Shown one piece after another: positions 10,495-28,726 of a DNA stretch of 28,726 nucleotides. The stretch is from the IMG/VR virus record IMGVR_UViG_3300001750_000086, positions 1-28,726 of that record; one strand, 5' to 3'. The stretch comes from a virus. The notes under the pieces were generated by a model that did not search any database, was not told where the DNA came from, and saw nothing but the letters and a program-made list of their open reading frames with translations. Every line of letters begins with the position of its first letter. Positions within the stretch are counted from its first letter, which is position 1. The translations under genes were made by a program, and so were the position numbers.

Positions 10495-11643
10495 TATAAA
10501 AATGAGTTATTTTATAAATAGAATATATTAAGAGGTTTAATAAAGATGATAAGAAAGTCAACAATAAATCTTAAATTTGTTAATAAAGGTAAACTTGAAA
10601 AATTAAAGATAATTGCTGAAGAATATCAAAGAGTTGTTAATATATTTATAGATAGACTTTGGGAACAGCAACAATTTTCAGGCAGTTTTGTCAAAGATAC
10701 AACTGTTGATAGTTGGTTATCCGCTTGTTTAAAACAAACAGCTTCAAAACATGCTCTTTCTATTATTAAACCACAACGTAAGAAAAAGAAAAAATCTAAA
10801 CCTACATTAAATAAACTTATAATGGAACTTGATTCAAGAGTTATTAAAATTACACAAGATATAAATTCTTTTGATATTTGGGTTAAACTTTTAACTGTTA
10901 GTAATAAAATTGATAATAAGTTTGGTAAAAGATTTAGTCTTAATTTACCATCCAAAAAGCATATACATTTTAATAAATTTTTACAAGACGGATGGACAAT
11001 TAAAAAATCAATTAGATTAAGAATAAATGAAAAAGGTTATTTTGCTGATATAATTTTTGAAAAAGAAGCTCCCATAATAAAAACTAAAGGTAAACAAAAA
11101 GCTGTTGATATAGGATATAAAAAATTGATTGTAAGTTCAGATAAAGAATTTATAGGTGATAATAAAATTTATGAAAAAATATCAAGAAAGAAACAAGGTA
11201 GTAAGGCTTTTAAACGTGCTTTAATAGAACGTGATGAGCTAGTTAATTTATCATGTAAAAGTTTAGATTTAATAAATGTTAAAAGTTTATATGTCGAAGA
11301 TTTAAAAAATGTTAAACATAAATCTAAAGGCAAAATACATAAAAAGTTTAACAATCGACTTCAACGGTGGGTGTATTCTCAATGTTTGAGAAAGCTCGCT
11401 ATGTTGTGTGAAGAGAGTGGAATTTTATTTAAGAAAATCCCACCTCAATATACAAGTCAAAGATGTAGTTGTTGTGGAGAGATACATAAGAAAAGCAGAA
11501 AGAATGAGCTTTTTTGTTGTGTTTCTTGTAATTTTGAGAGTGATGCCGATTATAATGCTTCACTTAATATATTACACATGGGACAATATGATGTCCATGC
11601 CTTACAAAAGCCAATTCTATAAAATTTTATAGGAAGGGCAACC
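10454..11643 (+). mobile_element. TnpB element 1, inserted in the regA 3' end
   Basis: The proposed element runs from the recoded regA tail (matching the post-element sequence from 10454) through tnpB to the right-end hairpin and CAACC at 11639-11643. There is no tnpA transposase, so it could not move alone by the usual single-strand route. The left limit is inferred from where the duplicated regA codons begin and could be some bases off. Confidence 0.6.
10546..11622 (+). CDS. tnpB: TnpB-family RNA-guided nuclease (IS200/IS605 OrfB-like), copy 1
   Basis: 358 residues with the split RuvC site intact: VDIGYKKL (187-194, Asp188), VEDLKNVKH (250-258, Glu251) and DADYNASLNIL (333-343, Asp333/Asp335). 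A zinc ribbon with Cys307, Cys310, Cys325 and Cys328 lies before the last motif. Family knowledge: TnpB uses an omega-RNA read from the 3' end of its own element, whose guide is the sequence just beyond the right end, to cut matching DNA next to a short TAM. The gene sits 51 bp after regA, with AGAGG before ATG 10546 and a TATAAATA at 10513. A near relative (roughly 87% identity by hand count over the shared 170 residues) is at the right edge. Confidence 0.88.
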   Translation: MIRKSTINLKFVNKGKLEKLKIIAEEYQRVVNIFIDRLWEQQQFSGSFVKDTTVDSWLSACLKQTASKHALSIIKPQRKKKKKSKPTLNKLIMELDSRVIKITQDINSFDIWVKLLTVSNKIDNKFGKRFSLNLPSKKHIHFNKFLQDGWTIKKSIRLRINEKGYFADIIFEKEAPIIKTKGKQKAVDIGYKKLIVSSDKEFIGDNKIYEKISRKKQGSKAFKRALIERDELVNLSCKSLDLINVKSLYVEDLKNVKHKSKGKIHKKFNNRLQRWVYSQCLRKLAMLCEESGILFKKIPPQYTSQRCSCCGEIHKKSRKNELFCCVSCNFESDADYNASLNILHMGQYDVHALQKPIL

Positions 11644-12779: not shown

Positions 12780-15374
12780 ATGAAGTTTTATAAAAATGTT
12801 TTTTTAGAAAAAAATTATTTATTAACTAAAGAATATAAAAATAATAAAGATGTATATACAAAGGTTAAATATGAACCATCAATTTTTATGGAAGATAACG
12901 AAGGTTTTTATTATGAGCCTATCACAAAACACAAATTAAAAAAACATACATTCACATCAATTTATGATTATTATGCTTATGTTAAGAAATATCAAGATAT
13001 TTCTAATTATAAGTTGTATGGGAATAAAGATTTTAGGTCATGTTGGTTAGCAGATAATTACGCTGAAACAAAATTTGATGTAGAAAAAATTAAACCTTGT
13101 CTTAATATAATCAATATAGATATAGAAGTTGTATCGCAAGATGGTTTTCCTAAACCGGAAGACGCACTCGCTCCATTATGTCTTATCACGCTAGGCAATT
13201 TATATAAAGGTGATGATGAAAAATTTATAACACTTGGATTGAGACCCATACAGGATAAATCTATTGAAGAAGATACCACTTATATTTTTTGTAAAGATGA
13301 AAAAGAATTATTAAAAAAATTTATTGAAGTATGGCAATCTTTAAACGTAGATATTGTAACTGGATGGAATGTTGGAGATTTTGATATAACATACTTAATT
13401 AACCGGATGAAAAGAGTTTTTAAATTTTCTACAGCATATAAAAATTTATGGTTAGGGCTAAGTTCTTGGGGAGTTATTAAAGAACATACAAAATCCCAAT
13501 ATGTATTTGGAACAAAACAAATTACAAAATATTATACAATAGCAGGTGTTACAATATTTGATTATTTATCTATATATAAAAAATATATATTTAAAAATAG
13601 ACCTTCATACTCTTTGGATAGTATTTCACAAATAGAATTGGGCGAAGGAAAGATTGAATATAGTAATGATTATCTCAGTTTAAATAACTTATACGAAGAA
13701 AATTATGATTTATATGTTAAATATAATATTCAAGATGTTGCTTTGGTTAATAAATTAGATAAAAAATTAAAATTTATGGATATGGTACTACATTTAATTT
13801 ATGACGCTGTTATGCCTTACGATAATGTATTACTCCCAACAAAGATGTGGGAACAGATTATATTCAAATATTATAAAAAACATAAATTAGTAATGTTATA
13901 TAATACATATACTAATAATGAAGACAGTGAATATATTGGTGCTTATGTCAAAGAAGTTATCCCCAACAAATATTTATGGATAATGGCGTTTGATATTGAC
14001 TCACTTTATCCTAATATAATTGTCCAGCAAAATATTTCGTTTGAGACATATTGTCCACAAGAATATAGTAAAATAATAAACCCGAATGATATTGAAAATG
14101 AAAGCGAAGAAGAAATAAAAACAAGAAATGAATATCTAAAAGAAAAAAATGTTACATTTACTCTTAATTCTGTTGAATATACAAAAGAAACTTGTGGAAT
14201 ACTTCCAACGTTAATAAAGGAAATTTATAAAGAACGTCAAAGATGTAAAAGATTGAGTAAAGATAATAATAAAAAATATATTGATACTAAATTAGAAAAA
14301 TATAAAATTAGAGCGGATTATTATTCCAGCTATCAACATATTAAAAAAATACAATTAAATTCTTTGTACGGAGCTTTAGGTTGTATATGGTTTAAATTCT
14401 TTAATATTAAACTTGCTGAAAGCGTAACATCTACCGGGCAATATATAATAAAGAGCATAGAAAATAGTGTAAATAATTATATTAAAACTATTCTAAATAA
14501 AGAAAAAGAAGATTATATTGTTGCTATGGACACAGACTCAATTTATGTTAGATTTGATGAATTTATAGAAAAATTAAAGTTAAAGGGTAAAGAAAAGATT
14601 ATAAATTTTTTAGATAAAAAAGTTTCACCAGAGATACAAAAAATAATTGTTCAGGACGCTAAAAAAATTGCTATAAAATTAAATAGTTATGAAAATAGAA
14701 TTGTAATGAAAAGAGAAGTTATCGCAGATAAGGGGATATTTTTAGCAAAGAAAAGATATATATTATCTATTGTTGATGATGAAGGTATAAGAGAAAAGAA
14801 ATTAAAAATGGTAGGTATATCTGCCATTAGTTCTTGGATACCACCATTTTGTAAAGAAAGAATAATAAATGTCATAAAAGAATATTTTTTATCGGAAGAA
14901 GATAATATTGACAATATAAAGATAGATTTAAAAAAATATATAAAAGAGACTAAAACTATTTTTAAAAAACTTCCACATAATGAAATAAGCAGGGCAAAAT
15001 CAATCAATCACTTAAAAAAATATTCAGATAAAAATACGATATATAGAAAGGGGAGCGGATTTCATATAAAAGGTGCTTTATTTTATAATCATTTAATAGA
15101 TTACTATAAAATTGAAAATAAATACGATAAAATTAAAGAAGGTGATAAGATAAAAATGGTATATTTAAAACCCAATATTTGGAACATGAATGTTATTGCT
15201 TTTCATTCAAAAATACCCAAAGAGTTTGAGTTAATAAATTATATTGACTATGACACAGAATTTGAAAAAACTTTCGTAGAACAAATTGATATGATAGGAA
15301 AAGTGTTGGGGTTGGATTTAATAATGATGAACAAACACCTTAACAAAAATCAGTTGACATTTTTAAAAAGATAG
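12780..15374 (+). CDS. 43: gp43-like family B DNA polymerase
   Basis: 864 residues from ATG 12780 with GGGAGG at 12768-12773; a GTG at 12762 precedes that RBS and is rejected. Proofreading exonuclease: Exo I NIDIEV (Asp114, Glu116), Exo II GWNVGDFD (Asn197, Asp202), Exo III YNIQD (Tyr315, Asp319). Polymerase: motif A FDIDSLYPN (404-412), motif B KKIQLNSLYG (522-531), motif C MDTDS (583-587) and a downstream KKRY. T4 gp43 has 898 residues, and all active-site residues are present. Family knowledge: the phage replicase, held by gp45; in T4 RegA and gp43 itself repress its translation. The C-terminus (NKNQLTFLKR) is the usual place for the clamp-binding peptide. No intein or intron seen. Confidence 0.97.
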   Translation: MKFYKNVFLEKNYLLTKEYKNNKDVYTKVKYEPSIFMEDNEGFYYEPITKHKLKKHTFTSIYDYYAYVKKYQDISNYKLYGNKDFRSCWLADNYAETKFDVEKIKPCLNIINIDIEVVSQDGFPKPEDALAPLCLITLGNLYKGDDEKFITLGLRPIQDKSIEEDTTYIFCKDEKELLKKFIEVWQSLNVDIVTGWNVGDFDITYLINRMKRVFKFSTAYKNLWLGLSSWGVIKEHTKSQYVFGTKQITKYYTIAGVTIFDYLSIYKKYIFKNRPSYSLDSISQIELGEGKIEYSNDYLSLNNLYEENYDLYVKYNIQDVALVNKLDKKLKFMDMVLHLIYDAVMPYDNVLLPTKMWEQIIFKYYKKHKLVMLYNTYTNNEDSEYIGAYVKEVIPNKYLWIMAFDIDSLYPNIIVQQNISFETYCPQEYSKIINPNDIENESEEEIKTRNEYLKEKNVTFTLNSVEYTKETCGILPTLIKEIYKERQRCKRLSKDNNKKYIDTKLEKYKIRADYYSSYQHIKKIQLNSLYGALGCIWFKFFNIKLAESVTSTGQYIIKSIENSVNNYIKTILNKEKEDYIVAMDTDSIYVRFDEFIEKLKLKGKEKIINFLDKKVSPEIQKIIVQDAKKIAIKLNSYENRIVMKREVIADKGIFLAKKRYILSIVDDEGIREKKLKMVGISAISSWIPPFCKERIINVIKEYFLSEEDNIDNIKIDLKKYIKETKTIFKKLPHNEISRAKSINHLKKYSDKNTIYRKGSGFHIKGALFYNHLIDYYKIENKYDKIKEGDKIKMVYLKPNIWNMNVIAFHSKIPKEFELINYIDYDTEFEKTFVEQIDMIGKVLGLDLIMMNKHLNKNQLTFLKR

Positions 15375-15400
15375 GAGGTGTCGAAATAAATATTTTTAAC

Positions 15401-16372
15401 ATGGCAGTGTTAGGAGCAAATACAGAGCTAGGTGGAGCTTTTTTAGATATTCTTGAAAAAGAAAAATTTTTATATAATGATATTAGGTTGTTTTGTTTAC
15501 AAAAAGAAAATGATATTATTATGAAAGTAAAATTAAGAGGTTATGATATTTCTATAGAATTTTTTGAAAAAAGAAAAATAAATAAATCTAATATAATAAT
15601 AATTTGTCAATCAGAATTTTTATCAAAAGAACATCTATCTATTTTTTTGTCTAATAAAGATATAAAAATTTTAGATATAACAGGTAATATACAATATATT
15701 AAAGAATATAATAATATTCCTGTAATCATACCAAAAATTAAAAACATTGATATAATAGAGAAAGATTATCCAATTATAGGTTCTCCGTCTAGTGTGGGAA
15801 TTATCATATCAAAAGTTTTAAATGGCATTAAACATAATTTTGGAGTTATTATAAAAGTATTGGTAGTATGTGAAACGAATACTAAAAATCCTCTAGTTTC
15901 TGTAAATAATTTTGATAATTCTTTTATAAAATTTAATACAGAAACAATAAATAAAAAATCAAAATGTTGTCAAGCAGAAGAAAAGCGTTTACAAACTGAA
16001 ATAAAACTGTTATTAAATATTAAATCCAGAATTACAATTTTAGGGAGTGTTTCTTTCAATACTCCACAAAATGTTGTTAATATTATGGTATCAATAAAAT
16101 TAAAGGAAAAAATAACAGTAGAAAGATTTAAGAATGAAGTATTAAAAAAAATAAAAAATGTTAAATATATTGAAAATATGTCTGATATGGACATACTTTC
16201 TTTAAATAAATTTAAAGAGTTGAATATAAATAAAGGTGAAACCATATTATTATATGGGTTGCAACAAAATAATAATTTAAGGTTGACAGATGATTTTAGA
16301 TTTTATATGATGGGTAACTATTATAGTTGTGGTCTAGCAAGCAATGGTTTAGAAATATTAAAAATATTATAG
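15401..16372 (+). CDS. Degenerate aspartate-semialdehyde dehydrogenase homologue (likely pseudoenzyme)
   Basis: At least 323 residues. It follows the Asd fold along its length when laid beside the intact enzyme at 20394: MAVLGANTELGGAFLDILEK mirrors LAIVGATGAVGKTFLTLLEK, ILDITGNIQ mirrors VIDNSSAF, and PVIIPKIKNIDII mirrors PLIISEVNPEKIF. The active-site NPNC is replaced by SPSS (Ser131 in place of Cys132), the Gln in STYQAS is lost, and the RVPV...HSE substrate-binding segment reads SFNTPQN. So catalysis is very unlikely although the frame is intact. The strong RBS AGGAGGTG (15373-15380) is 20 bases from ATG 15401; the well-spaced codon is ATA 15386, so a non-standard start adding INIFN is possible. 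It might pair with the active Asd or have a new role. Confidence 0.7.
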   Translation: MAVLGANTELGGAFLDILEKEKFLYNDIRLFCLQKENDIIMKVKLRGYDISIEFFEKRKINKSNIIIICQSEFLSKEHLSIFLSNKDIKILDITGNIQYIKEYNNIPVIIPKIKNIDIIEKDYPIIGSPSSVGIIISKVLNGIKHNFGVIIKVLVVCETNTKNPLVSVNNFDNSFIKFNTETINKKSKCCQAEEKRLQTEIKLLLNIKSRITILGSVSFNTPQNVVNIMVSIKLKEKITVERFKNEVLKKIKNVKYIENMSDMDILSLNKFKELNINKGETILLYGLQQNNNLRLTDDFRFYMMGNYYSCGLASNGLEILKIL

Positions 16373-19861: not shown

Positions 19862-20392
19862 GTGGCAGAAACTAAAGGGAAACTTATTATATTATGTGGA
19901 AGGTTAATGGTATTATATAAAGATAGTCTTAAAGAAGCTGATAATGAATTATTTAAAAGGGTTGGGCTTCATTATAACGAACTAGATCCTGAAGGTTGGT
20001 ATGATACCAAATTGTTTGCTCTTTTTATAGATAAATACGCAGAAGCGTCTATAACAAAAGAAAACGCAATAATTACTTTAGGGAAAAGTATGTATCCTCA
20101 AATAAAAAGAATGGGTGGATTGCCAAACCACATTAAAACACCAATAGACTTGCTTAAATATTCAGTAGAAACATTTTTAAAAAACCATAGAGGGCGTGAG
20201 GTAAGACCAAAAAAACTTGTTGAAGCTATAAATGGCAGGGTTGTAATTCATGGCACTAATCCCTACTTTTCACAAAAACTTTGTAAAGGTGTATATTTGG
20301 GGATACTTGGGATGTATAATGTAAAAAATCCTAAAGTTGTGATAACTAAAGGTTTTCCAAATGTTGAATATATAATAACATGGGATATTTAA
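19862..20392 (+). CDS. Unknown protein, possibly HNOB/V4R-like sensor fold
   Basis: 176 residues starting at GTG or at the ATG-equivalent codon just after the gp41 stop (GAGGAGG overlaps gp41's end). The pattern GWYDTKLFALFIDKYAEAS, then ITLGKSMYPQIKRMGG, and near the end GTNPYFSQKLCKGVYLGILGM and a final VEYIITW resembles the heme-NO-binding/V4R-type small-molecule domain, where an NPYFC...GVxxGIL segment and a terminal CEFxxxW are usual. The expected Cys residues are not at those places and no heme His is evident, so binding of heme or zinc cannot be claimed. Sits two bases before the intact Asd gene, suggesting co-expression. Fold proposal is weak. Confidence 0.6.
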   Translation: MAETKGKLIILCGRLMVLYKDSLKEADNELFKRVGLHYNELDPEGWYDTKLFALFIDKYAEASITKENAIITLGKSMYPQIKRMGGLPNHIKTPIDLLKYSVETFLKNHRGREVRPKKLVEAINGRVVIHGTNPYFSQKLCKGVYLGILGMYNVKNPKVVITKGFPNVEYIITWDI

Positions 20393-20393
20393 A

Positions 20394-21407
20394 ATGAGAA
20401 GACCAAAAATAAATCTTGCTATTGTTGGAGCAACAGGAGCGGTAGGCAAAACATTTTTAACATTATTAGAAAAACGTAATTTCCCTGTTGATGGATTAAC
20501 ACTTTTTGCTTCGCCAAAATCTATCGGTAGAAAACTTGTTTATTGTGGTAAAGAATATGAAGTAAAATCTATAGAAAAGGATAGTTTTAAAAATATAGAT
20601 TTAGCATTTTTTTCCGCAGGAGCGACTATCAGTAAATATTACGCTCATAAGGCAGTTAATTCTGGTGCTATAGTGATTGACAATTCCAGTGCTTTTAGGT
20701 TGGATGAAGATGTACCTTTAATTATATCCGAAGTTAATCCTGAAAAAATATTTACACATACAAAGGGGATTATTGCAAATCCTAATTGTACCACTATAAT
20801 AATGTTGGTAGCCTTAAAACCTTTGTATGATTATAGTAGAATAAAAAGAGTTATTGTGTCAACCTATCAGGCTTCATCTGGAGCAGGCGAAAAGGGTTTA
20901 GCTGAACTTATAACACAAACGAAAAAATATGCGGAGGGGGTATCTTTTGGTAGGAAATATTTTCAACATCAATTATTATTTAATGTAATTCCACAAATTG
21001 ATGATTTTAAGAACAATGGATATACAAAAGAAGAAATGAAAATGTTTAATGAAACAAGGAAAATTTTAGGTGATGAAAATATTACGGTTAATGCGACTTG
21101 TGTTAGAGTACCTGTGCTAACAGCACATTCAGAGTCAATAACCATAGAAACTAAGAAGAAAATTTCACCAAAACTGGCAAGGGAAATATTTAAAAATTCT
21201 CCGGGAATTACTTTGCTAGATGACACAGTAAAATATTCAGAATATCCTACTCCATTGTTTGTAGCTGGAAAAGAAAATTGCTATGTGGGGAGGATACGGA
21301 AAGATTTATCCACAAAGAAAGGGTTATCATTTTGGGTGGTCGGAGACCAACTTATAAAGGGCGGAGCTTTGAACGCTATACAAATTGCTGAACATTTAAT
21401 AAAATAA
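20394..21407 (+). CDS. asd: Aspartate-semialdehyde dehydrogenase, catalytic residues intact
   Basis: 337 residues, full family length. NAD(P) site VGATGAVG (11-18), active site NPNCTT (130-135, Cys132), STYQASSGAG (156-165, Gln159), and RVPVLTAHSE (238-247, Arg238, His245). NPNC rather than NPGC separates it from ArgC. Family knowledge: reduces aspartyl phosphate to aspartate semialdehyde, the branch point to lysine/diaminopimelate, threonine and methionine. Why a phage needs it is unclear; supply of amino acids or wall precursors, or of a modified base precursor, are possible. It starts two bases after the preceding gene. A degenerate homologue lies at 15401. Confidence 0.92.
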   Translation: MRRPKINLAIVGATGAVGKTFLTLLEKRNFPVDGLTLFASPKSIGRKLVYCGKEYEVKSIEKDSFKNIDLAFFSAGATISKYYAHKAVNSGAIVIDNSSAFRLDEDVPLIISEVNPEKIFTHTKGIIANPNCTTIIMLVALKPLYDYSRIKRVIVSTYQASSGAGEKGLAELITQTKKYAEGVSFGRKYFQHQLLFNVIPQIDDFKNNGYTKEEMKMFNETRKILGDENITVNATCVRVPVLTAHSESITIETKKKISPKLAREIFKNSPGITLLDDTVKYSEYPTPLFVAGKENCYVGRIRKDLSTKKGLSFWVVGDQLIKGGALNAIQIAEHLIK

Positions 21408-21630: not shown

Positions 21631-21990
21631 ATGGGTAGTTTTACAAATTATACAGATAGCATTAAAAACCTTTTGGAAGAAATTATAGAAGATATTAGGT
21701 GGATAGAAGGAGAATTGTTAAATAATACTTCCCATTGGACAGAAGAAAATATTAAGGAACTATATAAACTTTTTGAAAAAATAAAATATTTTGAACCAAG
21801 AGAAAATAAAAAGGAAGAAGGGTTTGATTTATATATATATGATGGGGATGATTTTATTAGGTTAAGTTCTTTAGATATTATAGAACTTGCGACTATATAT
21901 ACGGATATAATAATTATAGAAAAAGCTATAAGTAGAGAAATGGCAATGGAATTGGATAAAATTCTTCAATTTATAGAAAAAATAAATTAA
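21631..21990 (+). CDS. Unknown helical protein, paralogue A
   Basis: 119 residues behind AAGGAG. Mostly helical, with a central segment of Asp/Tyr character (FDLYIYDGDDFIRLSSLDIIELATIY). It is homologous to the protein at 22809: LFEKIKYFEP with LLDKLNFWEV, LYIYD with LFIYD, and FIRLSSLDIIELATIYT with YIRISSLEDMELGNVYI, in the same order and spacing. The two copies flank the HAD phosphatase gene. No known family recognised; probably early because it lies behind P3. Confidence 0.7.
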   Translation: MGSFTNYTDSIKNLLEEIIEDIRWIEGELLNNTSHWTEENIKELYKLFEKIKYFEPRENKKEEGFDLYIYDGDDFIRLSSLDIIELATIYTDIIIIEKAISREMAMELDKILQFIEKIN

Positions 21991-22808: not shown

Positions 22809-23213
22809 ATGGCAAGAATGAAAACAGATTTAATTAGAACTACCAATAATTTAATGAATAGTGTAGATAAAATTATTAAGGATATTAGATTATTAGATGC
22901 TTATATAGAAGAAATTTCTAAAGTTTGGTTTGAGGTCAACTCTGATACTGTAAAAGCTGATATGGAGAGTCTATATTCATTATTGGATAAGTTAAATTTT
23001 TGGGAAGTTAAAGAAGCTAAAAATAAATTAGAATTATTTATTTATGACAATAATAATTATACTAAAAATGATTATATTAGAATATCTTCTTTAGAAGATA
23101 TGGAATTGGGAAATGTTTATATAAGTATAGTATTAAGTGGTGGGAATATTGCTAAAGAATTTGAAAGACTGTTTAAATTTATGGTGGAATTTTCAGAAAT
23201 GTATAGACATTAA
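22809..23213 (+). CDS. Unknown helical protein, paralogue B
   Basis: 134 residues behind AAGGAAG. Homologous to the protein at 21631 across the C-terminal two-thirds (LELFIYDNNNY, then YIRISSLEDMELGNVYISI). The N-terminal helix is different and more basic. No known family. It precedes primase gp61 and could belong to the early segment rather than to replication. Confidence 0.7.
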   Translation: MARMKTDLIRTTNNLMNSVDKIIKDIRLLDAYIEEISKVWFEVNSDTVKADMESLYSLLDKLNFWEVKEAKNKLELFIYDNNNYTKNDYIRISSLEDMELGNVYISIVLSGGNIAKEFERLFKFMVEFSEMYRH

Positions 23214-25659: not shown

Positions 25660-26863
25660 ATAAATGTTAATTCAAAAAGGTTTTAAATATAAAATTTTAC
25701 CTACTAAAGAACAAGAAAAAGTTTTACTTCAATGTGGAGGGAATACTAGATTTTTATGGAATTATGTATTAAAGTTAAATCAGGATTATTATAAAGAAAC
25801 AGGTAAGTTTAAGTTTTGGTATGAATTAGCAATGTCTTTACCTGAACTTAAAGAAGAATATCCTTTCCTTAAAATATCTCATTCACAATCTTTAGTTGTA
25901 GTTGTTAGACAATTTGATAAAGCATTAAAAGACTCATTCAGAAAAAAGAAAGGTTTTCCAAAGTTTAAAAAGAAACTTAAATTAAATGATAGTTTTACCA
26001 GTCCTCAAGCATGGAGATTAGGAAAAGGTTTTATTTATATCCCTAAAGTTGGAGAAGTTAAATGGAAGAAAAGCAGGTCTTTGAGAGGAAAACCTAAATC
26101 TATTACTGTATCTCAAGATGGTAATAAATGGTATTGTTCTGTTTTATGCGAGTATGAAATTAAAGAAAAGAAGAAGAAAAATAAAAATATAGTTGGTTGT
26201 GATGTTGGAATAAAAGAGTTTGCCACATTATCAGATGAAACAGTAATAAACAATCCTAAAATTACTAATAAATATAAAGATAAATTAACAAAAGAACAAA
26301 GAAGTTTAAGTAAAAAGAAAAAGGGAGGGAAAAACAACTTTAAGCAGAGATTAAAAGTAAGAAAAGTACATAACAAAATAAGAGACAGTCGTATGGATTT
26401 TCTACACAAAACATCTAGCTCGATAGCCAAGAACTATGACGGAATTGTGGTAGAAGATTTGAATGTTGTAGGGATGTTAAAAAATCACTGTCTTGCTAAA
26501 GCTATAAGTGATGTTTCATGGTTTGAGTTTAACAGACAACTTAAATATAAGTGTTTGTGGGGTTTTAAACACTATATTAAAATTGATAGATTCTTTCCAA
26601 GTTCAAAAACTTGTTCAAGATGTGGTTGTATTCAAGATATGCCTTTAAGCAAGAGAACTTTTAATTGTCCTGATTGTGGTTTAAAAATGGATAGAGACCT
26701 AAATTCTAGTATTAACATAAAAGAACAAGGTATAAATACGCTAGGGTATAGCGGAATTAACGCTTGTGGAGATGTTCTGTTAGGAACGTCAATGAAGCAA
26801 GAAAAAGAATGCTTGGATAACCAAGCAAATGCCACAAGATTATAGTCTTGTGGAGTACCAACC
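25636..26863 (+). mobile_element. TnpB element 2, inserted in the gene 13 3' end
   Basis: Runs from the recoded gp13 tail (from about 25636) through tnpB to the right-end hairpin and CAACC at 26859-26863. The left boundary is inferred from the start of the duplicated codons. There is no tnpA and no classical left end: only four bases separate the gp13 stop from the tnpB start. Confidence 0.65.
25664..26845 (+). CDS. tnpB: TnpB-family RNA-guided nuclease (IS200/IS605 OrfB-like), copy 2
   Basis: 393 residues with all key residues: VGCDVGIKEF (177-186, Asp180), VVEDLNVVGML (262-272, Glu264), zinc ribbon Cys317, Cys320, Cys335, Cys338, and MDRDLNSSINI (342-352, Asp343/Asp345). The N-terminus (YKILPTKEQEKVLLQC) is the common TnpB start. 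Distinct from copy 1: SRCG/CPDCGL ribbon and a different N-terminus, so a separate lineage. Its ATG is four bases after the gp13 stop, and its stop codon lies in the loop of the right-end hairpin. Family knowledge as for copy 1. Confidence 0.9.
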   Translation: MLIQKGFKYKILPTKEQEKVLLQCGGNTRFLWNYVLKLNQDYYKETGKFKFWYELAMSLPELKEEYPFLKISHSQSLVVVVRQFDKALKDSFRKKKGFPKFKKKLKLNDSFTSPQAWRLGKGFIYIPKVGEVKWKKSRSLRGKPKSITVSQDGNKWYCSVLCEYEIKEKKKKNKNIVGCDVGIKEFATLSDETVINNPKITNKYKDKLTKEQRSLSKKKKGGKNNFKQRLKVRKVHNKIRDSRMDFLHKTSSSIAKNYDGIVVEDLNVVGMLKNHCLAKAISDVSWFEFNRQLKYKCLWGFKHYIKIDRFFPSSKTCSRCGCIQDMPLSKRTFNCPDCGLKMDRDLNSSINIKEQGINTLGYSGINACGDVLLGTSMKQEKECLDNQANATRL

Positions 26864-27403: not shown

Positions 27404-28216
27404 ATGAAAAGTATAAAAGAATTTTTAGAGCAAAGTGTAAGTTTTTTAGGATTATCACAAAAAAGATTTGCGGAGAGACATATCGAATTTTTAAAAGAAA
27501 AAGAAAATAATCCTTATACAAGAGAAGTTGATATAAAAGATGTTGTTGGTAATCCAGATAAATATGTAAATACTTCGGGGGTTATAGCTGGAGAAGTTAT
27601 AGAATTAGGTGTACATAAAACTCCGGGAATTGGATTATATGTACAATCAAGTTTAGAGCCATTTTTTGTATTACTAGGTGAACAAGGTTTTATTGATATA
27701 GACGGAATGAATAGAAGATATATTCAAATAATAGATGATAATGGAGAAAAGACAGAAGATAAAATATATATAGGCGATTATATTGTAGCTTGTGGGGATT
27801 TTAATAAATTATTTTATACATCTTGTGCTATGTCAAAAGTACATTATATTCAAGTATTTAAGGCTGATTTTATACATCATAAATTTGCAGAAAGTGAATT
27901 TACAATAACAAAATCTTTGCCATTAGTACCAGATTATCAATATTATAAATGGGAGATAGGGGAAGATAGCATAACTAGTGGGTTTATAAATCAACATATA
28001 CTGTTTTCAGGTATGGATAATAATACTCCAACGGATATTGTAGGTTGTAAATTTTTTATATTTAAGTTTGAAACACAGAAAAAGGGATTTGGTGTTATAT
28101 CTCTTGATTTTAATAGATATGATAAAAATGGAAAATTAGTTGAATTTATAGGCTCACATGAATATTTAATTTTTGTAACAATGCCAATGGTTGCTTTATC
28201 CTATGCTAGTTCATAG
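27404..28216 (+). CDS. Unknown protein, C-terminus probably interrupted by TnpB element 3
   Basis: 270 residues behind GAGAGGTG. The middle is beta-rich with many Gly and Asp (TSGVIAGEVIELGV, then GIGLYVQSSLEPFFVLLG and YIGDYIVACGDF), which suggests an OB-like or virion protein, but no family is recognised. The last eight residues (VALSYASS) are encoded by the right end of element 3, beginning at GGTTGC 28189, so the natural C-terminus is probably missing or altered. The original end would be on the far side of the element, outside this window. Starts four bases after deformylase. Confidence 0.65.
   Translation: MKSIKEFLEQSVSFLGLSQKRFAERHIEFLKEKENNPYTREVDIKDVVGNPDKYVNTSGVIAGEVIELGVHKTPGIGLYVQSSLEPFFVLLGEQGFIDIDGMNRRYIQIIDDNGEKTEDKIYIGDYIVACGDFNKLFYTSCAMSKVHYIQVFKADFIHHKFAESEFTITKSLPLVPDYQYYKWEIGEDSITSGFINQHILFSGMDNNTPTDIVGCKFFIFKFETQKKGFGVISLDFNRYDKNGKLVEFIGSHEYLIFVTMPMVALSYASS
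28169..28216 (-). ncRNA. Element 3 right end: omega-RNA 3' hairpin and guide (minus strand)
   Basis: On the minus strand CTATG pairs with CATAG around the six-base loop AACTAG (28201-28216), followed by GATAAAG and CAACC (28189-28193). The guide would start at 28188 and run into the antisense of the 27404 gene. Same plan as element 1: TTCTAT, eight bases, ATAGGA, then GCAACC. Confidence 0.45.
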
Positions 28217-28726
28217 AATAGGCTGTAAAGCATGGACACCATATCGTCCCATGTGTAAAATATTGAGTGAAGCATTATAATCCGCATCACTCTCAAAATT
28301 ACAAGAGATACACTTAAAAAGCTCATTCTTTCTGCTTTTTTTATGTATCTCTCCGCAACAACTACATCTTTGACTTGTATATTGAGGTGGAATTTTCTTA
28401 AATAAAATTCCTTCCTCTTCACACAACATAGCGAGCTTCTGCAAAACTTTTGGATACACCCACCGTTGAAGTTGATGATTAAACTTTTTATGTATTTTAC
28501 CTTTGGATTTATGTTTAACATTTTTTAAATCTTCTGCAAAAAGTTCTTTAACATTTGTTAAATCTAAAGCCTTACAAGAAATATTAACTAACTCATTTCT
28601 TTCTATCAATGCTCTTTTAAATGCTTTACTTCCTTGTTTCTTTCTTGATATTTTTTCATAAATTTTATTATCACCTATAAATTCACCACTAGAACTTACA
28701 ATCAATTTTTTATATCCTATATCTAT
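28189..28726 (-). mobile_element. TnpB element 3 (partial, runs off right edge)
   Basis: Right end at 28189 with hairpin and CAACC, tnpB reading leftward, left end beyond the window. Inserted in the opposite direction to the host gene, unlike elements 1 and 2. Confidence 0.65.
28211..28726 (-). CDS. tnpB: TnpB-family RNA-guided nuclease, copy 3 (N-terminus outside window)
   Basis: The frame is open to the right edge and shows the C-terminal 172 residues. It begins with IDIGYKKLIVSS (the first RuvC Asp), then AEDLKNVKHKS with the catalytic Glu, the zinc ribbon SQRCSCCG...CISCN, and DADYNASLNIL. Roughly 87% identical to copy 1 by hand count, with single changes such as Cys to Lys next to the zinc ribbon and Lys to Gln near the end. 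All active-site residues visible here are kept, so it may be active. Confidence 0.85.
   Translation of the reverse strand: MDIGYKKLIVSSSGEFIGDNKIYEKISRKKQGSKAFKRALIERNELVNISCKALDLTNVKELFAEDLKNVKHKSKGKIHKKFNHQLQRWVYPKVLQKLAMLCEEEGILFKKIPPQYTSQRCSCCGEIHKKSRKNELFKCISCNFESDADYNASLNILHMGRYGVHALQPIL

Follow-up and report, generated by a model that had tools for sequence, protein, structure and literature searches.

In aspartate-semialdehyde dehydrogenase (Asd, EC 1.2.1.11), a cysteine acts as the nucleophile, His274 serves in acid-base catalysis, Arg267 and Glu241 hold the substrate, and Arg102 and Lys244 belong to the phosphate site. The roles of the catalytic and substrate groups have been described together with the functional dimer, in which the subunits communicate and the active sites are linked, and the helical subdomain of the bacterial enzymes adds to the dimer interface (PMC3276109). 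A cellular paralogue, Usg (USG-1, E. coli b2319, PRK08040), has Ser at the nucleophile position (VPDS for NPNC). In an unrelated protein, the deoxyhypusine synthase of trypanosomes, a dead paralogue forms a heteromer with its active relative (PMC3663545). Metabolic genes carried by phages are usually read as extra enzymes; were a phage to maintain a dead copy next to a live one, the two would count as a pseudoenzyme pair. Here we describe P0001, a dead Asd homologue that is real and apparently maintained, in a phage that also encodes an intact Asd, P0002; the setting is new, a cellular precedent is known, and the partner is putative. A literature search, with most subscription papers outside its range, found nothing on phage Asd or on dead Asd in phages.

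Results

The window analysed is the complete 28,726-base IMG/VR record IMGVR_UViG_3300001750_000086, which is AT-rich (GC 26%). It belongs to a T4-like phage and has the T4-type replication gene order (gp47, gp46, clamp, clamp loader, regA-like repressor, DNA polymerase, UvsX, gp41-like helicase and primase), several of these names being assigned from reading the translations. The window is not close to any phage compared, as the closest UvsX proteins are 53% identical to its own. The gene for P0001 is placed between the DNA polymerase gene and uvsX, and the intact Asd gene, which the first-pass annotation had put 4 kb away, is indeed found 4.0 kb downstream on the same strand (Table 1). The 176-aa protein encoded directly 5' of the intact gene (19862-20392) matched no known family, and a search of viral contigs gave no relative. 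Further along, two small proteins of no assigned function (21631-21990 and 22809-23213) are paralogues (29% identity, E=9e-14), and their genes flank one for a HAD-type phosphatase.

Table 1. Coordinates of P0001, its neighbours and the intact Asd gene in the window
Feature	Position	Strand	Evidence
T4-type DNA polymerase, upstream neighbour of P0001	12762..15374	+	tblastn, about 36% identity to the closest phage DNA polymerases
AGGAGG ribosome-binding site, immediately after the stop codon of the polymerase	15373..15378	+	direct reading
Probable non-standard start codon ATA (ATT 15392 also possible)	15386..15388	+	AGGAGG spacing; strand 1 of Rossmann fold
P0001, catalytically dead Asd homologue, 328 aa	15386..16372	+	NCBIfam Asd E=4e-11; Pfam Semialdhyde_dh E=1.8e-4; residue loss; coding statistics; model pLDDT 73.7
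Codons of GSPSS, replaced catalytic motif (ANPNC in P0002)	15779..15793	+	alignment
UvsX/RecA-like recombinase, downstream neighbour of P0001	16385..17428	+	about 50% identity to T4-like phage UvsX
P0002, intact Asd, 337 aa, all catalytic residues present	20394..21407	+	NCBIfam PRK14874 E=5e-139; asd_B above cut-off

P0001 matched the NCBIfam models PRK14874 (E=4.2e-11) and asd_B (E=9e-10) over residues 3-160, far below the family cut-offs (42.5 bits vs 223 and 38.2 vs 324.2, respectively). The NAD-binding domain of semialdehyde dehydrogenases, matched in Pfam at 22.3 bits under a cut-off of 26 bits, is present, which places P0001 in the Asd-like superfamily by homology. Against P0002, to which P0001 is about 20% identical, BLASTP gave E=9e-7. 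The N-terminal half alone scored 38.8 bits with the Asd profile, while those of 1000 shuffles that scored at all reached at most 4.5 bits; the C-terminal half alone scored 4.6 bits, as high as 1 of 1000 shuffles, and its hhalign E of 0.032 is not significant. The whole protein was aligned by hhalign with the Asd profile collinearly over residues 4-327 (E=2.5e-7). On these profile, shuffle and hhalign scores, the homology of P0001 to Asd is certain, being strong for residues 1-160 and weak in the C-terminal half, where a strongly diverged C-terminal dimerisation domain is probably present. The proposal that the full Asd fold pattern is preserved therefore holds well for residues 1-160, while for the C-terminal half it finds support in the right order of the full alignment but not in the scores of that half alone.

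Only E241 is kept in P0001 among the eight catalytic and substrate residues R102, N134, C135, Q162, E241, K244, R267 and H274 (E. coli numbering). R102 is replaced by Lys, N134 and C135 by Ser, Q162 by Thr and K244 by Arg, and R267 and H274 are without counterpart, so that the substrate-binding Arg/His segment is gone, as had been noticed before. The frame had also been described as open with SPSS at the NPNC site, and this reading is correct, since P0002 and the other Asd frames have NPNC or GGNC there. When the open frames of all loci were scanned, N-P-N-C or G-G-N-C was retained in 119 strong Asd matches; the full-length homologues lacking both motifs are P0001, E. coli Usg and a weak match (L162) that scored at the level of other family enzymes. 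The NADP signatures GxxGxxG, S-x-x-S-x-G and SGxG are likewise absent from P0001. GATGAVG is changed into GANTELG, in which the middle Gly is lost and the first and last are kept; the S-x-x-S-x-G loop (S40, S43, G45) and the SAG turn are both altered; and no SGxG loop is left, the main gap of about 26 residues lying around this site and the helical subdomain. These losses argue against a dinucleotide sensor and thus against the dinucleotide-binding regulatory role suggested in the first-pass annotation. A shuffle test of the conserved columns of P0001 in a forced-length alignment had no power, the shuffles reaching the observed values.

The base composition at the three codon positions of P0001 (GC1/2/3 0.29/0.22/0.12) resembles that of the other window genes, and so does its in-frame codon score of 0.178; each of the remaining forward frames scores about -0.9. 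The frame has no stop codon, although its own base make-up would predict about 36 in the absence of selection. Given the normal coding statistics and the absence of stops, P0001 is apparently a maintained gene, and a non-catalytic role for an open frame kept without its catalytic residues, as proposed earlier, remains the best reading of the residue loss and the coding statistics. The frame as given begins at ATA, and the first common start codon is ATG 15401. The AGGAGG motif stands 7 nt ahead of ATA 15386, 13 nt ahead of ATT 15392 and 22 nt ahead of ATG 15401, while 22 of the 24 window genes surveyed have a ribosome-binding site 5-13 nt ahead of the start; moreover, a start at ATG 15401 would shorten strand 1 of the Rossmann fold in the alignment. 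Because the spacing is usual only for ATA and ATT, P0001 likely uses one of these non-standard starts, and the ATA could also be a single-base change of, or a sequencing error in, a former ATG.

An AlphaFold2 model of P0001 (pTM 0.76) has a predicted Asd-like fold, and its best matches in the PDB are Asds (E=1.6e-20, TM about 0.63); since the model was built on an alignment of Asds, this fold is not independent proof. Residues 165-195 are modelled below pLDDT 50 and are unreliable, and a model from the single sequence reached a pLDDT of only 35. No match at E<=0.001 was obtained in a viral fold library.

No confirmed relative of P0001 was found in viral contigs with the whole protein, the alignment or the N-terminal part as query, and none was found among annotated phages and plasmids. 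The 51 Deferribacterota genomes searched also contained no relative; matches there span only about residues 3-160 at 21-26% identity, a pattern to be expected from ordinary Asd-type enzymes. P0002 is nearest to the Asds of this phylum (63% identity in Deferribacteraceae and 60% in Mucispirillum; 64% to one genome of the phylum in a second comparison), so the phage host may belong to Deferribacterota, as judged from this one gene. P0001 is also nearest (24%) to the Asd of the genome that gives 64% to P0002. One Deferribacterota genome has two intact asd genes on separate contigs (L183 9808-10860 and L184 1405-2439), neither in a phage-like setting. The end branch of P0001 in the tree, about 10 changes per site, is far too long for its placement to be used in choosing between gene duplication in the phage and separate capture. 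A full catalytic Asd is unusual in a T4-like phage, relatives in the scan coming from only 7 viral contigs, with several matches at a contig end. Since 49 related T4-like records, many of them fragments, gave no credible Asd (three weak matches were short and chance-like), both Asd genes look like insertions special to this phage lineage. As to mobile elements, the window has a TnpB-like gene (10546-11622), a second partial copy of it on the minus strand (28211-28705; DNA 87% identical over 544 bases) and a different TnpB at 25664-26845; the TnpB genes had no close match in Deferribacterota that would link the phage to a host there.

Discussion

P0001 probably acts not as an enzyme but in binding or regulation. 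We tentatively favour, at somewhat less than even odds, a phage pseudoenzyme kept for protein binding, its likeliest partner being an active Asd from either the phage or its host. P0001 would be a fast-evolved Asd paralogue in which the Rossmann-type N-terminal domain survives, as probably does the C-terminal sheet, but from which the nucleophile, the groups for acid-base chemistry and substrate binding, and the NADP site have disappeared; it may be made alongside the replication proteins. A dead partner of this kind could tune or block a homodimeric Asd with linked active sites and might alter the flux of aspartate semialdehyde. The loss of seven of the eight key residues in a homologue with normal coding statistics, a good ribosome-binding site and a predicted Asd-like fold speaks for this reading, and so does the intact Asd encoded nearby on the same strand of the same phage. 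The role is attractive because Asd is a dimer with linked sites (PMC3276109) and because dead paralogues can control live ones (PMC3663545). P0001 may pair with an active subunit, as the first-pass annotation suggested. Against it, the deletion takes out the helical-subdomain region that helps to form the dimer, residues 165-195 are poorly modelled, and at about 20% identity to P0002 the interface residues are not visibly matched to it.

Nearly as likely is that the Asd-derived fold has been repurposed and binds something unrelated, such as DNA, a replication protein or a defence protein, with no link to aspartate metabolism. The extreme divergence seen in the end branch and a composition and C-terminal half unlike those of Asd would fit such a change, but an intact Asd in the same small genome segment would then be a coincidence. 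That the P0001 gene is flanked by the polymerase gene and uvsX and lies at a distance from the intact asd also points this way, although such a position says little, as unrelated insertions frequently break up phage cores. It is rather unlikely that P0001 is a decaying gene, that is, an asd that was acquired, became redundant once a second copy was present and is not yet broken. Decay would agree with the survival of a single active-site group, with the deletion, with the lack of relatives in the searches and with an ATA that could be a mutated ATG; however, an AT-rich frame at about 20% identity to every Asd has kept free of stops and shows the codon-position bias of the other genes, which suggests that most of its change took place under selection on the frame. 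The least probable explanation is that P0001 is an enzyme that has diverged to a different chemistry, for instance one using Ser instead of Cys: the Ser stands exactly at the nucleophile position, but the protein has also lost the general acid-base His, the Gln, the two Arg residues and the NADP signatures.

Returning to the favoured pseudoenzyme that binds an active Asd, a bolder form of it, to which we give little credence, is that a phage with its own working Asd uses the dead one in mixed dimers to shut or retune the host Asd and so takes over the aspartate-semialdehyde branch point during infection; if true, this would touch lysine, diaminopimelate, threonine and methionine. With the P0001/P0002 pair one could test whether inactive subunits serve phages in steering the metabolism of the host, and P0001 would also bear on the function of bacterial Usg.

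Compared with the Asds of the PRK14874/asd_B type, P0001 has full-length collinear homology and the same strand-helix pattern, and shares the two outer Gly residues of the nucleotide loop, the substrate Glu in the EExK/R..E helix and the C-terminal G-x-A-x-N; it differs from them in lacking the catalytic Cys, Gln and His, the Arg pair and the NADP signatures, and in the deletion of about 26 residues. With the trypanosome deoxyhypusine synthase (PMC3663545) it has in common an inactive paralogue beside an active one, and thus a possible way of working; the heteromer was shown there and would apply to P0001 by analogy. Usg resembles P0001 more closely: besides having Ser at the nucleophile position, it has also lost Arg102, Gln162 and Arg267, has Arg for Lys244 and keeps Glu241. 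In Usg, unlike in P0001, GxTGxVG and His274 are retained and the C domain is complete; with an Asd profile Usg reaches 264 bits, against 38 for P0001. P0001 itself is not a Usg, its match to PRK08040 being only E=0.008 over residues 4-123, and so the resemblance in lost residues looks parallel. Usg nevertheless provides a cellular precedent for the retention of an Asd paralogue whose catalytic Cys has become Ser.
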